Of a stretch of DNA of 64,000 nt, positions 32,101-43,160 are shown in pieces (positions within the stretch are counted from its first letter, which is position 1; each line of letters opens with the position of its first letter). The position numbers and the translations under genes are program-made. The stretch is from Halomarina rubra (lineage in GTDB: Archaea > Halobacteriota > Halobacteria > Halobacteriales > Haloarculaceae), in NCBI RefSeq assembly GCF_023699475.1, contig NZ_JALXFV010000007.1, forward strand, positions 327,537 through 391,536, read 5' to 3'. Under the pieces are notes generated by a model that saw only the letters and a program-made list of their open reading frames with translations, made no database searches and had not been told where the DNA came from.

Positions 32101-32594
32101 CCGTGTTCGTCATCGACGAGGCGCACTACCTGCTACAGAGCCCGGAGATGCTGGCGTGGCTCCAGCAGGCTGCCCGGCACTGGCGGCACTACGATGCTGG
32201 GCTGTGGTTCGTCTCGCAGCACCCCGACGACTTTGCCGTCGGCAAAACCGACGAGATTCAGGAGTATCTCGACGCGATTCGCGGTCAAACGACGGCGACG
32301 ACGTTCTTCGCGACCGAAGACCTCACTGATGCGACCGCCGCGAAGTACGGACTCAACGCACCACAGGCTGAGTTCATTCGTGGGCGAGCGACACGCGGTG
32401 AGGCTGATGTTGGCTACACCGACTGCTTGATGGCGTTCGAAGAACGCGAGGGGTGGCATCACGTCGAAGTGCGCCTCCCGCCACTGGAGTTGCTTCTTGT
32501 CGAATATGACCCCGAAACGCACGGCGAATTTGAGGAGTACTTGGAAGCACGTTGGTCCGCTCGTCAACGAACGAACGGAGGTGACCACCCATGA
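29160..32594 (+). CDS. VirB4/TraC-like conjugation ATPase
   Basis: A 1,144-residue protein. Two helices lie near the N-terminus (NFLYASPGGACLIAGIYILL and LGFGALLAAIGYRIA, about 40-80), like the PrgI-VirB4 fusions of other archaea. A long middle region precedes a RecA-like ATPase: Walker A AGDSGSGKTTF near 744-754 and Walker B AVFVIDEAHYLLQ near 980-992, followed by ARHWRHYDAGLWFVSQHPDD (arginine/sensor region). VirB4 powers pilus or channel assembly at the inner face of the membrane. It overlaps its neighbours at both ends (TAATG upstream, ATGA downstream), so the operon is strongly coupled. An Asp/Thr-rich linker occupies about 370-450. Confidence 0.85.
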   Translation: MTRQQTTIDRAQAETTNRDPTQLVPQWVDTGMRVRIPFGDEVPVRNFLYASPGGACLIAGIYILLFGGSIALAAPLLGFGALLAAIGYRIARSTDYAVTTAADRVLGPLRFRRLQRRLPFTQEEAAEPAPTVSWWRRILPFTPDHQTRAHDVARILEGGLAEMNDGRLVGMVRLEGRNTDLQTDEEARPMIGRLRTALDEDVTDIPFRLYSTSLDTNPEDVTAAYRRAWHATYTGDAWRWMREYLRSLVGWESAATTDLWESREWRHYIVISVAPDDVDLPTFDESQAVDEERLAARRRRQQRAEVRDRLDTVGGAFRQTPGVKTTTVGPAELATIVARRWTGTTHEFDDTAVTSAVDAAVWPHASEPASKDDVATDAPHRPGAVTVHDGNQGATVAVTTVAPGSVPPGGDTSLGRRATPDGGTKTSATSRDRPVASSTQAYDNPDDDPELDSDESADASLFARVRDGLFETTDLDNESPNRIADLLAGVYDVGDGYVRAGEQYARTYWIAGWPTEPREKFLRELYTLRGVDVEVNLRCEPCSKDAAMARVKDRIGEVDADIAERKEASDVTAMLEERDMDPYTKMFILLHETPAQAWHLTGYVTVRAGTRQALDRAEEYLEDGLVNQSDLSLDVTKRQALEDASSRVQKILERSPAQLTPVSSPHRQDELFTAAGPLGRDAYAEGSHRERSAFTLSGTIAAAFPPVAPTVQQDDGVLVGRLSSNGSAVTPDPFAPGPAHQLVAGDSGSGKTTFVEKKALRWWAQGEDRTLILCDTMGEFAGITQLCNGERITLDGTQTINPLHIEATPDEVLQQLDVAPFEMKFQEAVNFILDVIANDPATADRFAPLVKDAVRETYRDAGVRPRDPSTHRGENSPTMADLRATVDDMGEHPSEYVTSTLEEEEIRNNAGPLLRRLSGFKQDGDLSALTGETETRIKPGGVSYLDLQQIEGLGAAADKSTMLMLMLGQVYQAVKRSKGPAVFVIDEAHYLLQSPEMLAWLQQAARHWRHYDAGLWFVSQHPDDFAVGKTDEIQEYLDAIRGQTTATTFFATEDLTDATAAKYGLNAPQAEFIRGRATRGEADVGYTDCLMAFEEREGWHHVEVRLPPLELLLVEYDPETHGEFEEYLEARWSARQRTNGGDHP

Positions 32595-35500
32595 GTGTGT
32601 TCGACCGCGTCCGTGACCAGCACACCGAGGAGTCGACCGGCTATGAGGCCACGTCGATTGGTGGTGACCTCGCTGACGTGCTCGCTGGTTCAGTGCAGCG
32701 ACCAGCTGTGACGGTGCGGCCGAACAAGGACAATAGTGGTATCGAGGCGATGGACGATGTCCTCGAAGCATTGCATACGGTCGAGACCGACTCCCCACGG
32801 TTCCGGGGCAAATCCAAGAACGTGAGTCCGGCCCACGCCTTCGAGATGCGCTATGCCGCGCCGACACCGCAGAGCGAACGGGTGGTCACACTCCAGTACA
32901 TCGCTGGCTCCGATGGCCTCGCGGGGACACTTCGCCGGCAGCTGCAGACGCAGTACCCGGACTCGCATGTCGACGAGACTGAGGCGACGTTCCTACCGGG
33001 GGCAGGGGCCAATGGAACTGACCAATACGTCGCCGGTGCGCGGCTCGCCCTTCGCCGATACTGCCTCTATCCATTGAAGAACGTCGACCTGCCAGGCTTT
33101 CGGACCGACCCCACCGGGAGTATTCTCGAGGAGATGGTGGGCACCCAAGAAGAGGGCGCGGCGGACGCGGACGTCGCCGTCCAGATTATGTTCAAACCAG
33201 CCGCCCGCGACTGGACGCAAGGCATCACCGGTGGCTACGGTGTGGCAAACGACGGCGCCGCCGCCGCCGCCCCGAGCATCGGAACGCTCTCGCACAATCT
33301 CAAGCAACCAGGATACGAGAAACACCGGCTCCCCATCGGCAATCTCCCGATCCTCGGGGCCGTCACCCGGTTCATTCCCGGTGTCGGCCACGAGGTGATC
33401 GAGCGTGACCCATCCACGGTCGATCGACAGGTTGCGAAACTACTCGAAGAACAGCAGGGTGAGAAGGGCTGGCGACTCTGCCTTCGGGTTGTCGCCGTCT
33501 CAGACGACCCTGAGGAGGCTGTCACCCGCGCGTCGAAGACGGCCGGCATGTTCCGGAACTTCTACGAGTCGAGTTCGGAGCAGACGTTCGTCCCACAGCC
33601 GCTTGCTGGTGAGGCACTCACGGAGATGCTTCGCCGGGCAGGCCACCGGGAGTTCAGCGATTCGGGCATGGTGAAGGCCCAGCGAGAAGTCGCCGGACTG
33701 GTCAACGTTCCGGAGGCCGACCACGTCAGCACGAACAAGATGCGGTGGTCGCTCTCACGGCCGGGGGAGGGAGTTCCTCCGAACACGCCACGATTCGACT
33801 TCGACGCCCACGATGTCGCGGGAGCCACGAGGGCCGAAAAACAACTCGCGATGCTCGATACCGATGACCCCAACGCTCCGTTCTGGTTCGGGTTCGGTCG
33901 CAAACACGGCATCGAGGCCGGTCTCGCGGCCGCGATACTGAACACGCACATCTTCGTCGGCGGTGGCACGGGCAAGGGCAAGACGACGTTCCTCACGAAT
34001 CTCGTCTCCCAGATCCTGCGGCGTGGGCACGGCGCGCTCGTGTTCGACCCGAAGGGCGTCGATGCCGACGAATTCATTCGGGAGTGGCCCGCCGACCGTG
34101 ACCCCGAGGAGTTCATCTTCGTGGACTTGAGCGACGACTTCGACAAGCAGGTGCGATTCAACTTCCTCGAGGTGCCGACCGACGCACCGCCGGACTCGCG
34201 GGCATTTTCGTCGGCTGTCGAGGCACTGTGTGACGATTTGGTCGCGATGATGGCGCAGGCCGGTGGCGACGACCAGTACTGGGGGGCGCTGATGAACCGC
34301 GTCGCTCGCACGCTCATCCGTGGGATGGCCAAGTCCGAGCGGACCTGTACGCTACTCGACCTCGCGTGTTGTTGTGCGGCCCCGGAGAACCGCGCACAGT
34401 TTCACGAGTGGATGAGTGAGGAGCGAATCCACTTCATCGAGGAGGCAGCCCGGCGGATTCGGATGAAAGAAGAAGACGACCTCGAACCGCTCGCGGGGCG
34501 TCTGGACCAGTGGATTCAGAACGACGCCATTCGGAATCTCATCAGCGCCACCGAGTCGACAGTCTCGCTCCAGGAGGTCGTGGAAGAGGGTAAGGTGGTC
34601 GTCGTCCGGAACGCACCAACGTCTGGCGAGACCGAGAAGCGCCTGTTCGCCACGGCGTTGATTCGGCGAGCGTGGGTGGCGGCCCGCGAATCGACCGACG
34701 CGCCGCCATTCTATGTCGTCTGTGATGAGTTCGACTCCATCGTCACGAAGCAGTCGAACATCCACTCGATTCTCTCGGAGGCACGGGCGTTCGATTTCTG
34801 TCTCACGCTGGCCTGTCAGAACCCGTCGAATCAACTCCCGGACCGGGTCGCCCAAGCCATCGCCAACCAGTGTGAGACGTTCATCACCTACAATCCCGGC
34901 GGACGACGCGACGCGAAGCTGATTCAGGCCCAGCACTCTCCGGATGTCGACTGGGAGGACCTCACCAATCTCTCGAAGTACCGCTTCTACATGCGGACGC
35001 ACGACAGCAACGACGAACTCACCCACTCGTACACGGTCGATGCGTTCCCGCCGACGGCCGACGTCCGCCGGGAGGTCACCGGTGAGTCTGGAATGTCTGA
35101 CGAGGATCTCCAGTGGTTCAAACGCCGCAGCATCGCTCGCAACGGGACGGAGCGACCGACCGCACTGCAGCAGAAAGGCGAGTCGCACTTCTACGATATC
35201 GACTATGAGCAAGGTCCCTCGACTGGTCTCGCTGCAGAGTCTGCCGATGAGGCAGCCGATAGGCCACGCATTCCTGCCACAGCAGAGCGCCGTCAGCAGG
35301 TCTGCAAGGCCCTCTACGATGAAGCGTTACAGACTGGAAGTGCGGACGGATACGTGTCGGCCAACGACTCAGCTGACCGCATCAGCGAGTATCTCGACAC
35401 CACTGTGGAGCACCGAAGTCAGCTCTGGTCACTCATCGACGACATTCCCGAAGAATATGTCGAGATAGAGCCCCGCGATGATGGGGTGTCCCTCCGGTGT

Positions 35501-36535
35501 ACGAGGGCTGGTGCGACAGCGATCTTCCAGACCGGTTCTGGCACCACTAGTGGTGGTCTCGGTCACAGAGCGTTGCTGAAAGACGCGTACGACCCACTTT
35601 CGACACTCGGGCTCCGTCTCGAGTTGCCTGAGCAAACCGGTGCCGATCAACCGGATGGGACCGGGACGGCGGCCCACATAGTCCCGTCAGTGGAGACGGA
35701 TTCCACGATGTCCCTCCGTGAGCGCCAGCGGTTGACCACCCGCGCTGCCGAGGAGTTCGCAGCGAGCCATCCACGCCTTGCTTACCTCACCGACGGTGGA
35801 GCAGTCACCATCGAGGCGGAAGCATCGACTGGTGAGACGAAGCCCGCGCAGACGCTGTTCAATCTCGCACAGGCTGTGAACAGCGGTCGGCGATGTCTCT
35901 TCGTCTGTCGCGAGGACGCAGCGTCGTCGATCTGGAAGACGCTCACCGACCCACCGTACCGCACGACACATGGCGTGGCCGATGGGACACGGTTCTACAA
36001 CCACCTCCCGCTTCGCATCGACGGGAACGAGCTACTCCGTCCAGGGAACGGTGAGCGAGCTGTGTGGACGCGTGACGATGACGGTGCGTATCGGCTCGCC
36101 GACCGAACAGGAACAGAGCACGCTCGATTCCCAACCGCGAGTGCGGTGTTCGACGACCCGAGTCGATACCCGGCAACCAGCGCGACCGTCGATGCCGATG
36201 ACGACGCATGGATGTCTGTTCCGAGGCCGTTCATCCCCGAACACGCGTTCGAAGGTAACCTCCCCGCTCGCGATGACTGGCACATTCTCGTCGTTCCGCC
36301 GGATGCGACTGCTCCGGACGACCTGCGTCTGTTCGTCGATGGCGAGATGGTATCGTTCGGTGAGACGCAGTGGTTCCGTAACGAGTCGCTGACTGGTGAC
36401 CTCGAATGGAGTGAATCGCTCGATAGTGACGATGATAACAGCGGAGAGACTGACCGCTCCCAGGACAGACCTGATGGAGACGACGAAGATGACCCGGACG
36501 AGACAAGCGACGGGACGCGCTTCCGGAGGTTCTAA
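32591..36535 (+). CDS. VirD4/TraD-like coupling ATPase
   Basis: A 1,314-residue protein, long for the family. The central ATPase has Walker A VGGGTGKGKTTFLTN near 455-468, the coupling-protein-typical FDPKGVDADEF near 485, and Walker B FYVVCDEFDSIV near 706-717. LACQNPSNQLPDRVAQAIAN is the conserved sensor block, and YNPGGRRDAKLIQAQHSPD follows. The first 400 residues have no clear domain; residues about 900-1,314 are an extra region of mixed folds with an acidic end. No membrane helix is visible, unlike classical VirD4, so it may be a soluble TraD/HerA-type DNA pump recruited by VirB4. The start overlaps the upstream stop (ATGA). Confidence 0.82.
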   Translation: MSVFDRVRDQHTEESTGYEATSIGGDLADVLAGSVQRPAVTVRPNKDNSGIEAMDDVLEALHTVETDSPRFRGKSKNVSPAHAFEMRYAAPTPQSERVVTLQYIAGSDGLAGTLRRQLQTQYPDSHVDETEATFLPGAGANGTDQYVAGARLALRRYCLYPLKNVDLPGFRTDPTGSILEEMVGTQEEGAADADVAVQIMFKPAARDWTQGITGGYGVANDGAAAAAPSIGTLSHNLKQPGYEKHRLPIGNLPILGAVTRFIPGVGHEVIERDPSTVDRQVAKLLEEQQGEKGWRLCLRVVAVSDDPEEAVTRASKTAGMFRNFYESSSEQTFVPQPLAGEALTEMLRRAGHREFSDSGMVKAQREVAGLVNVPEADHVSTNKMRWSLSRPGEGVPPNTPRFDFDAHDVAGATRAEKQLAMLDTDDPNAPFWFGFGRKHGIEAGLAAAILNTHIFVGGGTGKGKTTFLTNLVSQILRRGHGALVFDPKGVDADEFIREWPADRDPEEFIFVDLSDDFDKQVRFNFLEVPTDAPPDSRAFSSAVEALCDDLVAMMAQAGGDDQYWGALMNRVARTLIRGMAKSERTCTLLDLACCCAAPENRAQFHEWMSEERIHFIEEAARRIRMKEEDDLEPLAGRLDQWIQNDAIRNLISATESTVSLQEVVEEGKVVVVRNAPTSGETEKRLFATALIRRAWVAARESTDAPPFYVVCDEFDSIVTKQSNIHSILSEARAFDFCLTLACQNPSNQLPDRVAQAIANQCETFITYNPGGRRDAKLIQAQHSPDVDWEDLTNLSKYRFYMRTHDSNDELTHSYTVDAFPPTADVRREVTGESGMSDEDLQWFKRRSIARNGTERPTALQQKGESHFYDIDYEQGPSTGLAAESADEAADRPRIPATAERRQQVCKALYDEALQTGSADGYVSANDSADRISEYLDTTVEHRSQLWSLIDDIPEEYVEIEPRDDGVSLRCTRAGATAIFQTGSGTTSGGLGHRALLKDAYDPLSTLGLRLELPEQTGADQPDGTGTAAHIVPSVETDSTMSLRERQRLTTRAAEEFAASHPRLAYLTDGGAVTIEAEASTGETKPAQTLFNLAQAVNSGRRCLFVCREDAASSIWKTLTDPPYRTTHGVADGTRFYNHLPLRIDGNELLRPGNGERAVWTRDDDGAYRLADRTGTEHARFPTASAVFDDPSRYPATSATVDADDDAWMSVPRPFIPEHAFEGNLPARDDWHILVVPPDATAPDDLRLFVDGEMVSFGETQWFRNESLTGDLEWSESLDSDDDNSGETDRSQDRPDGDDEDDPDETSDGTRFRRF

Positions 36536-36993
36536 TCGTGGAGTTGGTTTTCGACGGCCGAGGCGAGCGTATTATAGGCGCTTTTCAGGTCCGTGATATC
36601 GGTTTCCATCGCCTTGATGCGCTCCTCACGCCGATCGAGGTCCCGTTCGAGGTCCTCGATATGGTTCACGAGGTCCTGAAACGTTGTTGGGGCAGTTGGC
36701 CCTGGGCGTTCGAGATATCTGCCACCGCGGTCGGTGGTGTCCCAGCATTTCGAGGGCGACCCGCCACCCTCCGCCTGACGACCGACTACGTCGACGAGTT
36801 CCCATTCTTCGAGGCGGCCGAGGTGGTAGTGCATACTCCCGGAGGGAACCGAGACCGCCTCCCGCAATCGGCCAGTCAGGATACCCTCGTCTGCGGCGTG
36901 AATGGTCGCGAGCAGTTTCGCCTGATCCTCGGAGATCTCCTCGTCGATTCGGTCGAAATCGAGCGCGTTTGTATCGGAGTCATCGGGGGTCAT
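36532..36993 (-). CDS. Winged-helix protein with C-terminal coiled coil
   Basis: A 153-residue protein. Residues about 18-85 form an archaeal winged helix (QAKLLATIHAADEGILTGRL, GSMHYHLGRLEEWELVDVV), and residues about 108-150 a coiled coil (LVNHIEDLERDLDRREERIK, AMETDITDLKSAYNTLASAV), suggesting a dimeric or higher-order DNA-binding protein. Its stop overlaps that of the VirD4-like gene on the other strand by 4 nt. The gene points against the transfer operon and could regulate it or the primase operon that begins 235 nt to its right. Confidence 0.75.
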   Translation of the reverse strand: MTPDDSDTNALDFDRIDEEISEDQAKLLATIHAADEGILTGRLREAVSVPSGSMHYHLGRLEEWELVDVVGRQAEGGGSPSKCWDTTDRGGRYLERPGPTAPTTFQDLVNHIEDLERDLDRREERIKAMETDITDLKSAYNTLASAVENQLHD

Positions 36994-37227
36994 CGGGACA
37001 TCTCGACGAGTTATAATCGAATTACGGCCTTAGAAATTACGGCTCTAGTACAGCCTGTCTCAGATTTTCCGAATACTATACTCCTCATGGAAGCCCTAAT
37101 CGTCGAGAGCGCTGGTGACAGTCAGACTCCGGTCGACTCCTGGTTGAGCAGGGTCGGCCTGGCGAGGGTCCAACGAGTCTATCGAGCGGCCCGATGGAGC
37201 GGGCCGCTTCCAGTTGCCCCGCGAACT

Positions 37228-37317
37228 ATGAGTGAAACACAGACTGAACGATCGACTCACCAAGGCATGGACAGTCTGGTCGATAGCGCGATTACTCTAG
37301 CTGAGGTGGGTGCATAG
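37228..37317 (+). CDS. Possible 29-residue leader peptide of the primase-polymerase gene
   Basis: ATG 37228 begins MSETQTERSTHQGMDSLVDS, then AITLAEVGA and TAG (37315-37317). The last base of the stop is the first base of the GTG that starts the primase-polymerase, an arrangement typical of translational coupling. The product is acidic with a helical C-terminal half. No family can be assigned to so short a chain. Its main support is the precise overlap. Confidence 0.4.
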   Translation: MSETQTERSTHQGMDSLVDSAITLAEVGA

Positions 37318-38672
37318 TGAGCCGAGACGTCCCGGACCGTAGTACCCTGCCGGACGTACTTGTTGATAAACAGCAATGGGTCGGATGGCGCTCGGAAGAA
37401 CGCGATGGGAAGCAGACGAAGATTCCAATCGATCCTGCAACGGGGCAGTACGCCTCGTCGACGGACTCGACGACATGGGGAACGTTCGAAGATGCGGTCG
37501 ACGTTGTGGTGAGTGGCGACGGTGCCGGTGTCGGGTTCGTTTTCACAGAGGAGGACCCGTTCGTGGGGGTCGACCTCGATGACTGTCGCGACCCTGAGTC
37601 GGGCGAACCGGAGCAGTGGGCCGCTGAGATTATCGAGACGCTCAACTCCTACACGGAGGTGAGTCCATCCGGAACGGGCTACCACGTCCTGGTCCGTGGG
37701 ACGCTACCAGAAGGTCGGAATCGCCACGGCGACGTCGAACTGTACGAGACGGCGCGGTACTTCACCGTCACGGGGGCGTATCTGGGCCGCCAGCGAACAA
37801 TCCACGAGCGGACGGCTGAACTGGCGACAGTCCACGCCGAGTACGTTGCCCAGCAGACGATGCCAGCCAACGAGGCACCTACTCTGGGCGACGGAGCGGA
37901 CCTTAGTGATTCGGTCTCATCTGAGCACCGCGATGGTGCGGCTGAGCCGACGAGGCTCTCGGACGAGGAACTACTGGACCGAGCCCGGAATGCGACGAAC
38001 GGTGAGAAGTTCGAGCGCCTGTGGTCAGGGACTATTGCTGGCTATGACAGCCAGTCGGAGGCGGACATGGCGCTGTGTTGCCTGCTCGCGTTCTGGACCG
38101 GTGGTGACTGTCGACAGATGGACCGCCTGTTTCGGGAGTCGGGGTTGCTTCGCGAGAAGTGGGATGAGATTCACTTCGCCGATGGATCGACGTACGGTGA
38201 GAAAACGATCGAACGAGCCATTGGAGCAACGAGTGAGTTCTACAATCCCGAGGGCAGAGAGCAGGCATCAGTCGACAAGCAAGGGAAGAGTTCGCTGTCA
38301 GATTCGGCGCAGTCGGCATCGACTCGGAAACTACGAGAGCTCGTCGAGGAGCACCACCAGCTCACGGGCCGCGTCGAGAGGCTGGCCAAGACCGTCGACC
38401 AGCAGGCTGACCGGATCGACACCCTCGAGCGGCAACTCGCTATCCTTGAAGGAGAGTTCGACTCAGCGCCGATGGAACCACACAGCCAGAGTGTGGCGGA
38501 CGAAGACGCTGACGACGAACGCGACTCTCCTACAGAACGGACAGAAGCATCTCACAACAGTAACCACACGGTGGAAGCAGAGCGCGGTGACGACGCTGCG
38601 AGTACCGACTCGGACGACTCGTTTGTCTCGCGGACACGTCGTTTCCTCGGGCATCAGTCGGACGATGCCTAG
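37317..38672 (+). CDS. NrS-1-type primase-polymerase-like protein
   Basis: A 451-residue protein. The N-terminal PrimPol-like domain (about 15-165) contains KQQWVGWRSEERDGKQTKIP, the metal-binding FVGVDLDDC (Asp86, Asp88), SPSGTGYHVLVRG (His123) and ARYFTVTG. The middle (about 205-310) matches the helix-bundle domain of NrS-1-like polymerases (LLDRARNATNGEKFERLWSG, QSEADMALCCLLAFWTGGD, DRLFRESGLLREKW). Residues about 330-385 are coiled coil and the tail is acidic. It lacks a helicase domain. Such enzymes prime and extend DNA on plasmids and phages; here it is the only candidate replication initiator-like enzyme in the element. The start is GTG. Confidence 0.8.
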   Translation: MSRDVPDRSTLPDVLVDKQQWVGWRSEERDGKQTKIPIDPATGQYASSTDSTTWGTFEDAVDVVVSGDGAGVGFVFTEEDPFVGVDLDDCRDPESGEPEQWAAEIIETLNSYTEVSPSGTGYHVLVRGTLPEGRNRHGDVELYETARYFTVTGAYLGRQRTIHERTAELATVHAEYVAQQTMPANEAPTLGDGADLSDSVSSEHRDGAAEPTRLSDEELLDRARNATNGEKFERLWSGTIAGYDSQSEADMALCCLLAFWTGGDCRQMDRLFRESGLLREKWDEIHFADGSTYGEKTIERAIGATSEFYNPEGREQASVDKQGKSSLSDSAQSASTRKLRELVEEHHQLTGRVERLAKTVDQQADRIDTLERQLAILEGEFDSAPMEPHSQSVADEDADDERDSPTERTEASHNSNHTVEAERGDDAASTDSDDSFVSRTRRFLGHQSDDA

Positions 38673-38862
38673 TCCAGATCGTGAACGCCGACGACTCGCG
38701 CACCTATTGCAGACGATTGGAATTCGATCTTGCCATGTCTCTTCTGCTGGTAGAGCCGATTGCTGGCGATTTTCGGACGGTCGCTTCACATGGCGACGTG
38801 CCTATTTGACTATGCCCGGATGTTACCCCACAGCGTTAGAGCGTGGTACCAACGTGGGGTAA
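38665..38862 (+). CDS. Small basic protein overlapping the primase-polymerase end (65 aa)
   Basis: ATG 38665 overlaps the end of the primase-polymerase gene by 8 nt and opens 65 codons: MPSPDRERRRLAHLLQTIGI, RSCHVSSAGRADCWRFSDGR, FTWRRAYLTMPG and a tail. The middle alternates Cys, His and Trp with strand-like residues, which looks like a folded mini-protein, but I know no family. The last 14 codons overlap the palindromic site at 38822-38863, so the true end may differ. Confidence 0.4.
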   Translation: MPSPDRERRRLAHLLQTIGIRSCHVSSAGRADCWRFSDGRFTWRRAYLTMPGCYPTALERGTNVG

Positions 38863-38863
38863 C
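38822..38863. repeat. 42-bp palindromic site, copy 1
   Basis: GTTACCCCAC (38822-38831) and its exact complement GTGGGGTAAC (38854-38863) enclose 22 nt. Copy 2 at 40784-40825 has the same arms and the same arm-to-arm offset of 32 bp, about three helical turns, so one protein dimer could bind both arms on one face. Both copies are followed 36 and 32 bp later by GGTGTTTCT (38899-38907; 40857-40865), showing that a longer unit was duplicated. The site is about 270 bp before the DUF3800 gene. Confidence 0.75.
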
Positions 38864-39132
38864 ACGTCGTAAATCAACGGGTGCAGTCGAGTGCCGAGGT
38901 GTTTCTGTTGGGCGAGTGGAATGCACGTCTCGATGAGAGGCACCACACGGCGACGTACGCTTCTCCACGGGTTTCGCTGCTCAACGCCCGCTACGGTCCT
39001 ACTGTGACCTGGACGGTCTTCCCAGAGACGTAACGCCTGTCGACCCGAGAGTTCAGCCCCCTCCGGACATCCCTATGATTCGTTTTCAGCCTGCTTATTG
39101 CCGATGCGTTAGTACCGACATGCACCATCTGA

Positions 39133-39831
39133 ATGGCTCGTATCCTCTATCTCTTCGTCGACGAAAGTGGGAACCCTGACGACGGGAACGTGTTCTCGCT
39201 TGTCGGGTGCTGGTGCGTCTCAGAGCGAGATACCGAGAACGATGTACTGAGTTCGACTCGGGCGAAGCTGATGAACCACGTCCGTGAGAATCACAACCCC
39301 GATGTCTCCGAACTCAAGGGGTCGAAATTGCCACCCTCGCTCATCGATACACTCATGGCCGTCCTGCAGCAGACCATCTACTCCGATTCCACAATCGAAG
39401 CCACCGCCGTCTGGGACCACGAGTCCCCGATTCGCTATTCTGTGTACAGTACGACCCCGGCAATCGTCAGCGAGTTCCTTTCTGGCAGAATCTCTGCAGC
39501 GCTCTCGACGGGTCAGATGCTTCGGGTGATGAGCCTCATCTCGATTATCGACCCGGTGTTCCGTCGGGGCCTCATCGACCTCACCGATATCGACGCGTTC
39601 AGAGTGGTGCTTGACGACACCGTGTGGTCAGGCCCAGCGGACATCGTCGAGGAGTGCTTTCGAGCCTACTCGCAGGACGCGCCCCTCGATGCCACCGAGT
39701 TCGTTATCGGCAACAGCCGAGCAGTGCCCGGGCTTCAGATCGCTGATCTCGCGGTCTACTCGTGGACGCGAAATCGACACCAAGGGGACTGTGAACACGC
39801 AAGTCAGGTTGTCCGTGACTATCGGGTATGA
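39133..39831 (+). CDS. DUF3800 protein (RNase H-like fold family)
   Basis: A 232-residue protein. DUF3800 hallmarks are the N-terminal LYLFVDESGN (Asp10, Glu11) and the C-terminal VPGLQIADLAVYSWTRNR (Asp205), which together form the acidic cluster expected for an RNase H-like nuclease fold. ALSTGQMLRVMSLISIIDP is central. Members are common on plasmids, phages and defence islands; their activity is not established. It has no coupled gene: the start is 270 bp after palindrome copy 1, and the stop lies 8 nt before the first of two unusual hairpins, which are therefore in its 3' untranslated region. Confidence 0.82.
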   Translation: MARILYLFVDESGNPDDGNVFSLVGCWCVSERDTENDVLSSTRAKLMNHVRENHNPDVSELKGSKLPPSLIDTLMAVLQQTIYSDSTIEATAVWDHESPIRYSVYSTTPAIVSEFLSGRISAALSTGQMLRVMSLISIIDPVFRRGLIDLTDIDAFRVVLDDTVWSGPADIVEECFRAYSQDAPLDATEFVIGNSRAVPGLQIADLAVYSWTRNRHQGDCEHASQVVRDYRV

Positions 39832-39839
39832 AACGTAGA

Positions 39840-39958
39840 CCATCGCCGCCAGAGAGCTCAGCCCCTGCAGAGAGGGATCATCGTCTCTCCGCGGCGATGG
39901 AAGGGCCGTCAGGGACTCAGCCCCTGCAGAGAGGGATCATCGATCCCCGACGGCCCTT
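39840..39958 (+). ncRNA. Two abutting hairpins with an identical 27-nt loop and different stems
   Basis: Hairpin 1 pairs 39840-39849 with 39891-39900 (10 bp, CCATCGCCGC) and 39852-39856 with 39885-39889. Hairpin 2 starts at the next base: 39901-39910 with 39949-39958 (10 bp, AAGGGCCGTC) and 39912-39915 with 39944-39947. An internal mismatch lies at the same place in both. Loop bases 39857-39883 and 39916-39942 are identical (27 nt, starting CTCAGCCCCTGCAGAGAG and ending GATCATCG), and each can form a short CCCT/AGGG inner stem. Different stems that both pair, around an invariant loop, argue for selection on RNA or DNA structure. The strand is assumed from the upstream DUF3800 gene. Confidence 0.65.
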
Positions 39959-40418
39959 CTCACCTGCACATTACCCTTCGACCAACTAAAGCATTGCTCC
40001 CGGCTACGCGTGTATCGCGTTGCAGGCAGCCGAGATGATGCTGTCACACGACGGTGGCAACACTTCGCCATGCTTTGCTCCACATTCTGGAAGTGGACGG
40101 GTACGCATTCTCCATCCCTGAAGTGCCCTGAGTCCGGTGAGACCGGTTCGGGACAACCAACGCGAACAGTAGTGGTTTCGAGCGGGACACCGCAGTGAGC
40201 ACGGGCAGTGGACCGACGGCCGAGACTTTGTGAGCAATGGGGTAATGCCGATAGCTACTGAGCTGAACGGGAAGGTGGGTGTGTCTGCTGGGGGGTCCAG
40301 CGTGGTTCGTCAATAGAGCCGACATCGGGGGCGTCGCGGAGCAGGTATGTCGTTTTCACGTAGCCACGAGATGAACAGCTGCAGAAACTGGTTTGGCCGT
40401 CTCCCTGCTCGGTGCTGT
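39959..40418. other. Intergenic region after the twin hairpins
   Basis: About 460 nt with no supported gene. Open frames near 40010-40198 (plus) and 40004-40325 (minus) lack motifs. An in-frame ATG at 40347 upstream of the TRAM-like gene adds a Cys/Arg-rich stretch that does not look coding. No palindrome or repeat like those nearby is present. Confidence 0.35.
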
Positions 40419-40670
40419 ATGGACGAAGATGTCGTTCAGGTCACGCTCGACAGGATGAGCGAGGACGGTGAGCCTGTCGGCGTTGACGATGCCGGACGAG
40501 CGATTCGTGTTCGCGATGGCGAGGTGGGAGGCACCTACCGAGTGGTCGTCATCAAGACGGTCAATGGCCAGTATCGAGGGCGTATACGGGCCATGAAGGA
40601 CCCAGAGACTGGCTGGGGGCCAGTGCACAGTCGTCGAGGCCTCTCCGACAACTCGCCCACCACCTATTGA
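40419..40670 (+). CDS. Small TRAM-like (OB-fold) protein
   Basis: An 83-residue protein from ATG 40419. MDEDVVQVTLDRMSEDGEPV, then GVDDAGRAIRVRDGEVGGTY and RVVVIKTVNGQYRGRI follow the strand order of TRAM domains, which bind RNA; stand-alone TRAM proteins act as RNA chaperones in archaea. The usual G-x-G-V loop is degenerate, so the assignment is moderate. The C-terminal 25 residues are polar and possibly unstructured. It lies between the DUF3800 gene with its hairpins and palindrome copy 2. Confidence 0.55.
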   Translation: MDEDVVQVTLDRMSEDGEPVGVDDAGRAIRVRDGEVGGTYRVVVIKTVNGQYRGRIRAMKDPETGWGPVHSRRGLSDNSPTTY

Positions 40671-40783
40671 ACGATAGTTTCTAGACGCGCGTCACCGGGT
40701 CTCTCGACGAGTCTGTTGTTTCACAGCCGTGAGCGCGCGTTCTCTCTATTCGGATAGCGCATCACCTCCTCGTCCGAATTTCT

Positions 40784-40825
40784 GTTACCCCACGAATACC
40801 AATAGAGTAGGCGACGTGGGGTAAC
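40784..40825. repeat. 42-bp palindromic site, copy 2
   Basis: GTTACCCCACG (40784-40794) and CGTGGGGTAAC (40815-40825) are exact complements with a 20-nt spacer. The arm spacing equals that of copy 1. It lies 100 bp before the ArdC-like ATG, so it may be an operator or part of that gene's control region, or a binding site for a replication or transfer protein. Confidence 0.75.
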
Positions 40826-40925
40826 GACTCGCTGAACGACTGGTGCGTCCGCCGGTGGTGTTTCTCGGCCCCCGAGGGGTGCAGGGCGCACGGCAGCGCG
40901 TTCGATCGTGAGCCTGATTTCAGTG

Positions 40926-41891
40926 ATGACCCGACAGCATTCGACAGCCGACAGCACCGCCCGTGTTTCGTTTACCGACACTGAGGACCGCGCCGACCGG
41001 ATGAGTGGCGCCATCGACGACTGGCTCGACCAGTTGTGCGAGGGCGTTGCAGATGCAGCTACGAACGAGCAGTTCCAGCAGTGGCTGGACGTGATGAGTC
41101 GGTTTCACGAATACTCGACGCAGAACCAGTTGCTCATCGCGCTCCAGAACCCCGATGCAACCCGCGTGGCGGGGTTCAACACGTGGCGTGAGGAGTTCGA
41201 CCGCACCGTCCAAAAGGGCGAGCAGGCCATCTGGATCTGGGCGCCGATCATGGCGAAGCAGTGTCCCGCGTGTGGGAACAGCCCCTCGTACTGCGAACGC
41301 TCGGCGTGTGAAGGGACAGACGTTCCAACTGACGAGTGGGAACGCGGTGTGGTCGCGTTCAAACCCGTCCCCGTGTTCGACGTCTCTCAGACCGAGGGCG
41401 AGCCACTTCCCGAGGTGGACATGGCCGCGTCTGGAGACGCCTCGACATTCGCTCCCGCGTTAGAAGCCGTCGCGCAGGGGCGGGGGTACGACTACTCGCT
41501 CGTTCCCGAGGCCGAGTGGATGCATGGGTCGGCCAAGGGCGTCTGTGCCCCGATGTCTAATCCGCCGGTCATCGAAATCCTCGAATGCGGAAACACTGCC
41601 GACCAGACCCGGACGGCCATCCACGAATTCGCGCATGCCGAACTCCACGCTGAGCGCTCGGACGACGAGCTCTCGACGACGGAGGTCGAAGCCGAGGCTG
41701 TCGCGTACGTCGTCGCCCAGCACTTCGGGCTCGACGCGAGCAACTCAGCGTTGTACGTCGCCGCGTGGAGTGGCGAGGCCGTCGACACTATCGACGAGCG
41801 ACTCGGGCGGATTCGACGGACCGCTCGTGAGCTCATCGAGGCGGTCCGATCGCACGTGACTCTCGAGGAGGAGCCGGCCAGCAGTCGGTAA
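40926..41891 (+). CDS. ArdC-like antirestriction protein with zinc-peptidase motif and an inserted Cys4 ribbon
   Basis: A 321-residue protein. The N-terminus (about 28-108) resembles the ArdC ssDNA-binding domain: FHEYSTQNQLLIALQNPDAT, RVAGFNTWREEFDRTVQKGE, QAIWIWAPI. An unusual insert with CPAC (113, 116) and Cys at 123 and 128 looks like a zinc ribbon. The C-terminal metallopeptidase-like part has HEFAHAELH (His233, Glu234, His237) and a downstream VEAEAVAYVVAQHFG Glu. ArdC proteins protect incoming plasmid DNA from restriction, which fits a conjugative element. ATG 40926 is preferred; GTG at 40908 is possible. Palindrome copy 2 lies just upstream. Confidence 0.8.
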   Translation: MTRQHSTADSTARVSFTDTEDRADRMSGAIDDWLDQLCEGVADAATNEQFQQWLDVMSRFHEYSTQNQLLIALQNPDATRVAGFNTWREEFDRTVQKGEQAIWIWAPIMAKQCPACGNSPSYCERSACEGTDVPTDEWERGVVAFKPVPVFDVSQTEGEPLPEVDMAASGDASTFAPALEAVAQGRGYDYSLVPEAEWMHGSAKGVCAPMSNPPVIEILECGNTADQTRTAIHEFAHAELHAERSDDELSTTEVEAEAVAYVVAQHFGLDASNSALYVAAWSGEAVDTIDERLGRIRRTARELIEAVRSHVTLEEEPASSR

Positions 41892-42164
41892 CTGGTGGTG
41901 TCGGTGTGTCGTTCTGGCCCGCCCCGCTCGGCGCGTGCCGCCCTCCGCTGCGGCCCTCGTTACACTCGGCCCGCGATTCGCTCGCGACCGACCAGTCCGG
42001 GCATGTGGCTCACTCCTGTCGTCACTCACCATTCCGGGCGTGTGCCCTCGACGCCAGCGGGTATCCGTCGGGGGGTCACTGCGCTCCCCCCACGACGCAT
42101 ACTCCGCTGGCCGCTCGCTCCCGGCGGACGCCGCGCGGGGCTCTGTGGTGCCGGTCGCCTCGGG

Positions 42165-42214
42165 GCGCGCTCGCTCGCGCCCAGGGGCGCTCGCGAAGGC
42201 GCGAGCGAGCGCGC
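42165..42214. repeat. Perfect 17-bp inverted repeat, 16-nt loop
   Basis: GCGCGCTCGCTCGCGCC (42165-42181) and GGCGCGAGCGAGCGCGC (42198-42214) are exact complements. Such a stem would extrude readily in single-stranded or supercoiled DNA. It lies 92 bp before the OB-fold gene. Confidence 0.85.
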
Positions 42215-42247
42215 AGTCGTGACTGGTCGGGTCGTCGTGTGTGGAAA

Positions 42248-42271
42248 ACTGCGGTGTTAGAGCACCGCAGT
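42248..42271. repeat. Perfect 9-bp hairpin, 6-nt loop, before the OB-fold gene
   Basis: ACTGCGGTG (42248-42256) pairs with CACCGCAGT (42263-42271) around TTAGAG. It ends 34 nt before the ATG of the OB-fold gene, so it may sit in the leader of that mRNA or overlap its promoter, as an operator or attenuating structure. Confidence 0.75.
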
Positions 42272-42305
42272 GTCGGACGCTCGGTGTACGTCTTCAGAGT
42301 ACGCA

Positions 42306-43160
42306 ATGGCAACTAGGAACGTATTCGGTAATGAGGTTTCGGTCGATGAACAGCGCGTCGAACAGGCGGATGAAGCAGCGGTTGACGAGGACGGCTTCGA
42401 AGTGGTCGATGAGACCCCGGAGTTCCGGGCGAGCGTGCAGCAGGAGATCCAGGCGAAGGTGGACGCGAACCACCCGGACGGGATGGTCGTGGCTGGCGAG
42501 GAACGAATCTACGGCGTGACCCTCGAACAAGAGGAGTGCATTCGCGCGCGAGAGGAGGAGTTGGCGCACATCAGTGCCCAGGCGACGTTCGGTAGCCAGG
42601 AGGGACGGGCGGAGCGGACGCGAGCGGTGGCCGAGGAAACGTGTGGACGCCAAGAAGAGCAGCGCGTTGACCCCAGAGAAAATCTGACGAGCGCGGAGCT
42701 CGGCGCGGTCAACCGGCAGGCGAGTCGAGTCCATCAACGAGTGCGTGGCGGTGAGAGTCGAGCGGTCGTAGCGCGGCGGATTGCAGAGCGAGTCGTCAGT
42801 GGCGAGGACGTGGGCAGTGCGGTGCTGAAGACGGTCGAGGACGAGAAGCGCATCTCGGGGGTCATCGTGCCCATCGCGGAGGTCCCGGACGTGCCGGTGG
42901 GCGAGGTGACGGTGGAAGGCGAGATCATCGAACTGTGGAAGCCCTCGACCCCGAACATCCAGCAGGTCGGACTGATCGCCGATGAGAGTGCGGTGACTAA
43001 GTTCACGGTGTGGGAGCGCTCGAATCAGCCCGTCGTGGCAGAGGGTGAGGTGGTGCGATTCTGTAACGTGAAAAAGAGCTGGCACCGTGGTCGGTGTTCG
43101 CTCGTCGCGACGGGGTGGAGTCGAGTCGTCTTCCCCGAGCGCGGGCGCTGGTGGGCGTAG
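42306..43160 (+). CDS. OB-fold (RPA-like) single-stranded-DNA-binding-like protein
   Basis: A 284-residue protein. The N-terminal 170 residues are charged and helical (SVQQEIQAKVDANHPDGMVV, LEQEECIRAREEELAHISAQ, VHQRVRGGESRAVVARRIAE). The C-terminal part (about 195-284) is an OB fold of the RPA type: VPVGEVTVEGEIIELWKPST, QQVGLIADESAVTKFTVWER, GEVVRFCNVKKSW and RCSLVATGWSRVVF. Similar proteins are frequent on haloarchaeal plasmids. It probably coats ssDNA during transfer or replication; that role is inferred. ATG 42306 gives MATRNVFGNEV; an upstream in-frame ATG falls in the hairpin region. Confidence 0.72.
   Translation: MATRNVFGNEVSVDEQRVEQADEAAVDEDGFEVVDETPEFRASVQQEIQAKVDANHPDGMVVAGEERIYGVTLEQEECIRAREEELAHISAQATFGSQEGRAERTRAVAEETCGRQEEQRVDPRENLTSAELGAVNRQASRVHQRVRGGESRAVVARRIAERVVSGEDVGSAVLKTVEDEKRISGVIVPIAEVPDVPVGEVTVEGEIIELWKPSTPNIQQVGLIADESAVTKFTVWERSNQPVVAEGEVVRFCNVKKSWHRGRCSLVATGWSRVVFPERGRWWA

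Follow-up and report, generated by a model that had tools for sequence, protein, structure and literature searches.

The window, by which we mean the whole 64,000-nucleotide stretch of Halomarina rubra DNA that was analysed, contains a gene of the DUF3800 family followed by a pair of hairpins (Table 1). The first hairpin lies 8 nt 3' of the stop codon, as the original prediction had noted, and its description of the pair as sharing one exact 27-nt loop within unlike outer stems is likewise confirmed by the sequence: the two 27-nt cores are identical, while the outer stems differ in sequence but are each paired, with an A.C mismatch at the equivalent position in both. No third copy was found in the H. 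rubra genome in a search within three mismatches, both copies lying at the DUF3800 locus, and the exact 25-nt core has no copy across a collection of 84,980 species. On folding, the hairpin region beats 200 of 200 shuffles on both strands (z -4.28 for plus, z -3.96 for minus), with a minus-strand fold of -74.9 kcal/mol. The region from 32591 to 43160 also encodes a TrwB/VirD4-like ATPase, a protein with an NrS-1 polymerase HBD domain, an ArdC/M78-like protein and a replication factor A-like protein, and is probably a plasmid or integrative element; PADLOC gave no match.

Table 1. Features of the DUF3800 locus, in window coordinates.
Feature	Coordinates	Strand	Basis or remark
DUF3800 gene, 232 aa	39133-39831	+	PF12686 match, family alignment, RNase HII-like model
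Predicted small RNA, ~130 nt, two hairpins	39831-39961	-	Ends inferred from TATA position and T-run
Putative BRE/TATA-like promoter element, minus strand AATGCTTTAGT, TATA-like CTTTAGTT at 39991-39984	39984-39995	-	~25 nt ahead of first hairpin; motif equally placed in DUF3800-linked units
Promoter-proximal hairpin, arms 39900-39915 and 39944-39959, one mismatch	39900-39959	-	Fold; match to covariance model R2
Conserved core of promoter-proximal hairpin, minus strand CGATGATCCCTCTCTGCAGGGGCTGAG	39916-39942	-	
Second hairpin, beside DUF3800 stop codon	39840-39899	-	Fold; match to covariance model R2
Conserved core of second hairpin	39857-39883	-	
Short T-run GTTTC, likely RNA 3' end	39831-39833	-	Weaker than T4-T5 runs of many relatives

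The gene product belongs to PF12686 (E=1e-6, 29.9 bits against a Pfam cut-off of 21) and models as an RNase HII-like fold, in keeping with the RNase H-like fold and intact acidic residues that had been predicted for it. The predicted structure is of middling confidence (pLDDT 71.5, pTM 0.74), and its best structural match is RNase HII 1eke, with a Z of 12.6 over 166 residues, Argonaute and RNase HI ranking below. As the alignment to 1eke begins at residue 4 of the model and residue 1 of the chain, D10-E11 of the DUF3800 protein would fall at D7-E8 of RNase HII, provided no gap intervenes, and D161 and D205 may correspond to the other two acidic residues of that enzyme. All four are among the positions invariant in a 13-row alignment of the subfamily (A5), namely D10, E11, S12, G13, E60, K62, G63, D161, W165, S195, G200, Q202 and D205. 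The protein is under purifying selection, with dN/dS of 0.05-0.17 between close pairs, and across RNA-bearing loci its members are just 25-39% identical. Relatives of the protein were found neither in viral contigs nor in the phage collection nor, by sequence, in the PDB.

Structure and strand of the hairpin RNA

The structure of the hairpins was assessed by means of a covariance model, R1, of the 40-nt inner part. Across its 36 distinct rows, 92.8% of cells are paired, as against 76.1% in shuffles, and two-sided changes occur in 53 cells, as against 13.5, neither value being attained by any of 500 shuffles. The whole-hairpin alignment, of 68 columns, behaves similarly, with pairing of 83.2% versus 70.6% and 87 two-sided changes versus 30.5; in the upper stem, compensated changes include CCCT/AGGG, CCCG/CGGG and CTCT/AGAG. 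In one MAFFT alignment (A8), the two window hairpins are misplaced by a few columns, so that pairing is understated in their rows. Such strong covariation in the stems indicates that the RNA structure is under selection, which bears out a claim first made from the two window copies only. The conserved unpaired part is an internal loop, reading CRAUGAU and GNAUGAG on the minus strand, around which the stems vary yet stay paired. Two hairpins, spaced 59-72 nt apart, are present at nine or more of the linked loci, and the remainder have a single one.

Three independent signs indicate that the RNA is read from the opposite strand to DUF3800. On the minus strand of 20 linked units, a BRE/TATA motif precedes the RNA by a constant interval, with a mean best score of 7.0 out of 8, compared with 5.14 +/- 0.21 (maximum 5.9) in 2000 shuffles; the same scan of the plus strand of linked units gives no peak. 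Of the 20 units, 9 have a run of four Ts no more than 30 nt downstream, compared with 0-3 for other bands. Finally, wobble pairs in the stems, read on the minus strand, comprise 18 G.U to 7 A.C (p 0.043), and an earlier count on loosely aligned stems, read on the plus strand, agrees in direction, with 45 A.C to 14 G.U. Most likely, the hairpin RNA is thus a separate minus-strand small-RNA gene with its own promoter, converging on DUF3800, and in the window the transcript is predicted to run from about 39961 to about 39831, with its 3' end at the stop codon of DUF3800. Transcription of the hairpins on the DUF3800 strand, which the original prediction had implied, is unlikely, as the minus-strand promoter, T-run and wobbles all point the opposite way.

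Distribution of the RNA and its linkage to DUF3800

The hairpin is not confined to H. rubra. A distant DNA search located the core, at 90% identity, just 3' of a DUF3800 gene on a plasmid of Halobacterium salinarum, whose protein is 34% identical (this gene, at L010 2260-2968, is absent from the gene table), and the hairpin also lies 3' of DUF3800 genes in further haloarchaea. In the species collection, nine of nine haloarchaeal loci retrieved by way of the protein carry the RNA. A covariance-model search for linked copies, proposed at the outset as a check, was run across 391 genomes of the class, where R1 detects the RNA in 22 and a profile search of the same set detects the DUF3800 subfamily in 17. 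The two occur together in 16 genomes by full match, and in the 17th (G054) the RNA core is cut by a contig end; none of the 17 genomes with the subfamily is without the RNA, and the co-occurrence has a Fisher p of 1.2e-22. The RNA adjoins DUF3800 in all loci but one. One genome, G339, has an intact DUF3800 with no adjoining RNA, and its RNA lies elsewhere in the genome beside a broken DUF3800 copy.

The unit formed by gene and RNA is present in some species and absent from close relatives at the same site. In Haloferax mucosum it is an insert of about 1.0 kb between two conserved genes, and in another genus the insert is about 0.9 kb. In H. mucosum and Halorussus (L172, L174) it is located at the 3' end of an apparent adenosylhomocysteinase gene, recognised by eye; this neighbour is common to these two and is not general. 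When filled sites were compared with empty ones in Haloferax, Halorussus and a third genus, neither a target duplication nor a common boundary was seen, and the end of a mobile element was rejected as an explanation. The idea that the variable site in Haloferax is a defence hot spot was also set aside, its other contents not being defence genes by Pfam or PADLOC.

Linkage runs in one direction only. Six of the 22 genomes with the RNA (G085, G166, G282, G284, G322 and G440) have no match to PF12686, and several of these DUF3800-less genomes retain perfect or near-perfect stems; in the lone RNA of G282, a change on one side of the upper stem is matched by one on the other. In Halorussus, G286, G275 and G453 have the full unit, G454 and G282 the RNA only, and others are empty at the same site; G454 has an additional DUF3800 with RNA elsewhere. 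Broken DUF3800 genes stand beside a kept RNA in G207, G339, G442 and Halovenus salina, the last (L203) having DUF3800 interrupted by an insertion with the RNA beyond it, and some of these breaks could be errors of draft assembly. In about half of the solo RNA copies, a clear promoter is missing at the expected place. Two loci of G440 that lie 72 kb apart (L164 and L165) agree in ORF map and in their lone RNA, and represent a duplicated region.

Lone copies also occur outside chromosomes. A 560-kb plasmid of Salinibaculum KK48 bears one just 5' of a tRNA-Ala gene with the same orientation. This plasmid is an unusual giant extrachromosomal element, with long one-directional runs of unknown genes as well as TFIIB-like factors, several DNA methyltransferases, RNase HI, a primase and tRNAs (L314-L316). 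A tailed-virus contig of 34,980 bases in IMG/VR carries another (L145 2954-3021, 66.6 bits), 1.1 kb from the gene for the terminase large subunit, with no DUF3800 in the 7 kb examined, and a second viral contig gives a weaker match of 23.8 bits (L216 3845-3910). An initial pattern scan of viral sequences was discarded, as the pattern was too loose and, among the matches listed, most were due to chance.

Copies scattered without DUF3800, in the manner of a REP-like repeat, had been named as an outcome that would count against a protein-RNA system. Solo copies do occur, though in small numbers and mostly with the structure preserved, and a dispersed repeat is excluded by the copy number in H. 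rubra, where the only two copies are both at the DUF3800 locus.

Possible roles of the RNA and comparison with known systems

With the structure, strand, linkage, fold and purifying selection of the unit established by computation, an antitoxin-like role for the RNA is the leading inference as to its function, and is not itself a result. The proposal is of a convergent two-gene unit, consisting of DUF3800 and an opposite-strand small RNA with its own promoter and one or two hairpins, in which the DUF3800 protein would bind the conserved internal loop and the RNA would restrain the nuclease as an antitoxin or inhibitor. Loss of the RNA, for instance when infection halts transcription, would free the nuclease, and the lone RNAs in genomes, on the large extrachromosomal element and in the virus would be leftover or decoy antidotes, the viral copy being a possible decoy. 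We give this reading a probability of roughly 0.45. It is favoured by the asymmetry of the distribution, in which the RNA occurs without DUF3800 and the reverse was not seen. Against it, an activating partner RNA would likewise be needed by every DUF3800 gene, and the lone copies could be recent remnants.

A wider proposal, put forward tentatively, is that these units are a new archaeal class of RNA-antitoxin or defence system, with an RNase HII-fold nuclease checked by a convergent structured RNA and lone viral and element copies serving as decoy antidotes. The pair may be a poison-and-antidote or an antivirus system, and the occurrence of the RNA alone on a contig from a tailed virus suggests involvement in the conflict between viruses and cells. 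Whatever its role, the haloarchaeal class supplies an anatomy for the puzzle of DUF3800-associated RNAs, in the form of strand, promoter, ends, partner gene, fold and invariant residues, while the asymmetry between RNA and DUF3800 points to a mechanism in relatives of the genetically tractable Haloferax volcanii.

A possible but rather doubtful alternative is that DUF3800 is activated or targeted by the RNA, as a scaffold without which the protein would not cut foreign or cellular nucleic acid. The linkage, covariation and fold data fit this too, certain type V and VI CRISPR loci include DUF3800 proteins as accessories (PMC10910872, PMC12669027), and G339 is the only genome with a DUF3800 apart from the RNA, which the genome still holds. 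Structurally intact lone RNAs in DUF3800-less genomes and in a virus would, however, be unexpected of a scaffold deprived of its protein, and no variable guide segment is seen in the RNA, whose variable parts are the paired stems.

An unlikely reading is that the RNA acts as a convergent antisense or cis regulator at the 3' end of the DUF3800 mRNA, with no direct partnership between protein and RNA. The RNA gene does abut or overlap the end of DUF3800, with 8-46 nt between the stop codon and the inner RNA core across loci, and some type I toxin-antitoxin pairs are convergent in the same way. A conserved loop would not be required for antisense pairing, though, and this one is maintained between loci despite the divergence of their DUF3800 proteins described above; the RNA is also kept at loci that have no DUF3800 to regulate.

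It is improbable that the hairpins function as DNA, as ends, attachment sites or processing sites of a small mobile DUF3800 cassette. The unit does come and go like a cassette of about 0.9-1.0 kb at the same site in close relatives, but its filled and empty sites lack both a target-site duplication and a shared boundary, a promoter and T-run flank the hairpins, the wobble pairs favour one strand, the genome holds two copies only and DUF3800 is under purifying selection. Very improbable indeed is an ordinary plus-strand 3' UTR or terminator of the DUF3800 transcript, which the placing of the hairpins directly 3' of the stop codon would suit, but which was rejected on the position of the promoter and which sits poorly with a conserved loop sequence, a minus-strand T-run and copies that have no upstream gene.

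Returning to the antitoxin or inhibitor reading, a known parallel would be the type III toxin-antitoxin systems such as ToxIN, where a nuclease gene likewise stands beside an RNA of one or more structured units, and with which lone antidotes and viral decoys would fit. A nuclease with a cognate structured RNA of this kind had been suggested for the window: the idea of a partnership gains from the linkage in 17 of 17 genomes and from the selected structure, while the type III layout fails. In type III systems the RNA repeats are upstream of the toxin, in one operon with a shared promoter, whereas the haloarchaeal hairpins, one or two copies only, follow the protein gene and are read towards it from a promoter of their own. 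The protein appears RNase HII-like, going by its best structural match, and Pfam finds only PF12686 in it; the toxin of type III systems has the ToxN fold. From RNase HII itself the DUF3800 protein differs in sequence (7-17% identity in the RNase H2/H3 matches listed), in its separate Pfam family and in its linkage to a structured RNA.

DUF3800-linked RNAs were reportedly introduced in a 2017 catalogue, and we found no function in the literature for those that Rfam lists. Rfam 15 and two CRISPR papers mention such RNAs or the DUF3800 protein (PMC10910872, PMC12669027). The haloarchaeal RNA fits this kind, in that it adjoins DUF3800 and has a conserved, covarying structure. Against Rfam, the window stretch and six haloarchaeal loci gave chance matches only, at E up to 5-10, with no DUF3800 family among them; the other Rfam motifs (DUF3800-I, DUF3800-IX and others) resemble the haloarchaeal RNA as structured RNAs near a DUF3800 gene, but none matches it beyond chance.

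The closest counterpart in form is DUF3800-X (RF02984). A scan of 197 genomes of the phylum found it in 29, every one of them labelled as falling outside the order to which the window belongs. Both RNAs are archaeal, convergent to DUF3800 and often without a DUF3800 neighbour, and both have a lower stem, an AUGA-bearing internal loop and a short upper hairpin, with a TATA-like box upstream and a T-run, seen by eye for DUF3800-X and quantified for the haloarchaeal RNA. At locus L208, DUF3800-X lies on the strand opposite DUF3800 and converges on it, and a convergent DUF3800 stands directly behind the RNA in five of 11 other loci in which the RNA was inside the stretch read. DUF3800-X RNAs in other archaea (L302-L313) often have no DUF3800 within 1.5 kb, although the TATA-like box and T-run are still visible by eye. 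Downstream of the distant DUF3800 genes at L291 and L208 are hairpins with a similar CTC...TCATCG core, that of L208 being DUF3800-X and that of L291 having no Rfam match. The haloarchaeal RNA differs in being often doubled, and the models do not cross-match: RF02984 has no match to the haloarchaeal RNA in the window or the scanned loci at E up to 5-10, nor has the haloarchaeal model R2 any in L208 or its genome. As neither model finds the RNA of the other, we place the haloarchaeal RNA in a new class of DUF3800-linked RNAs, one that may share ancestry with DUF3800-X.
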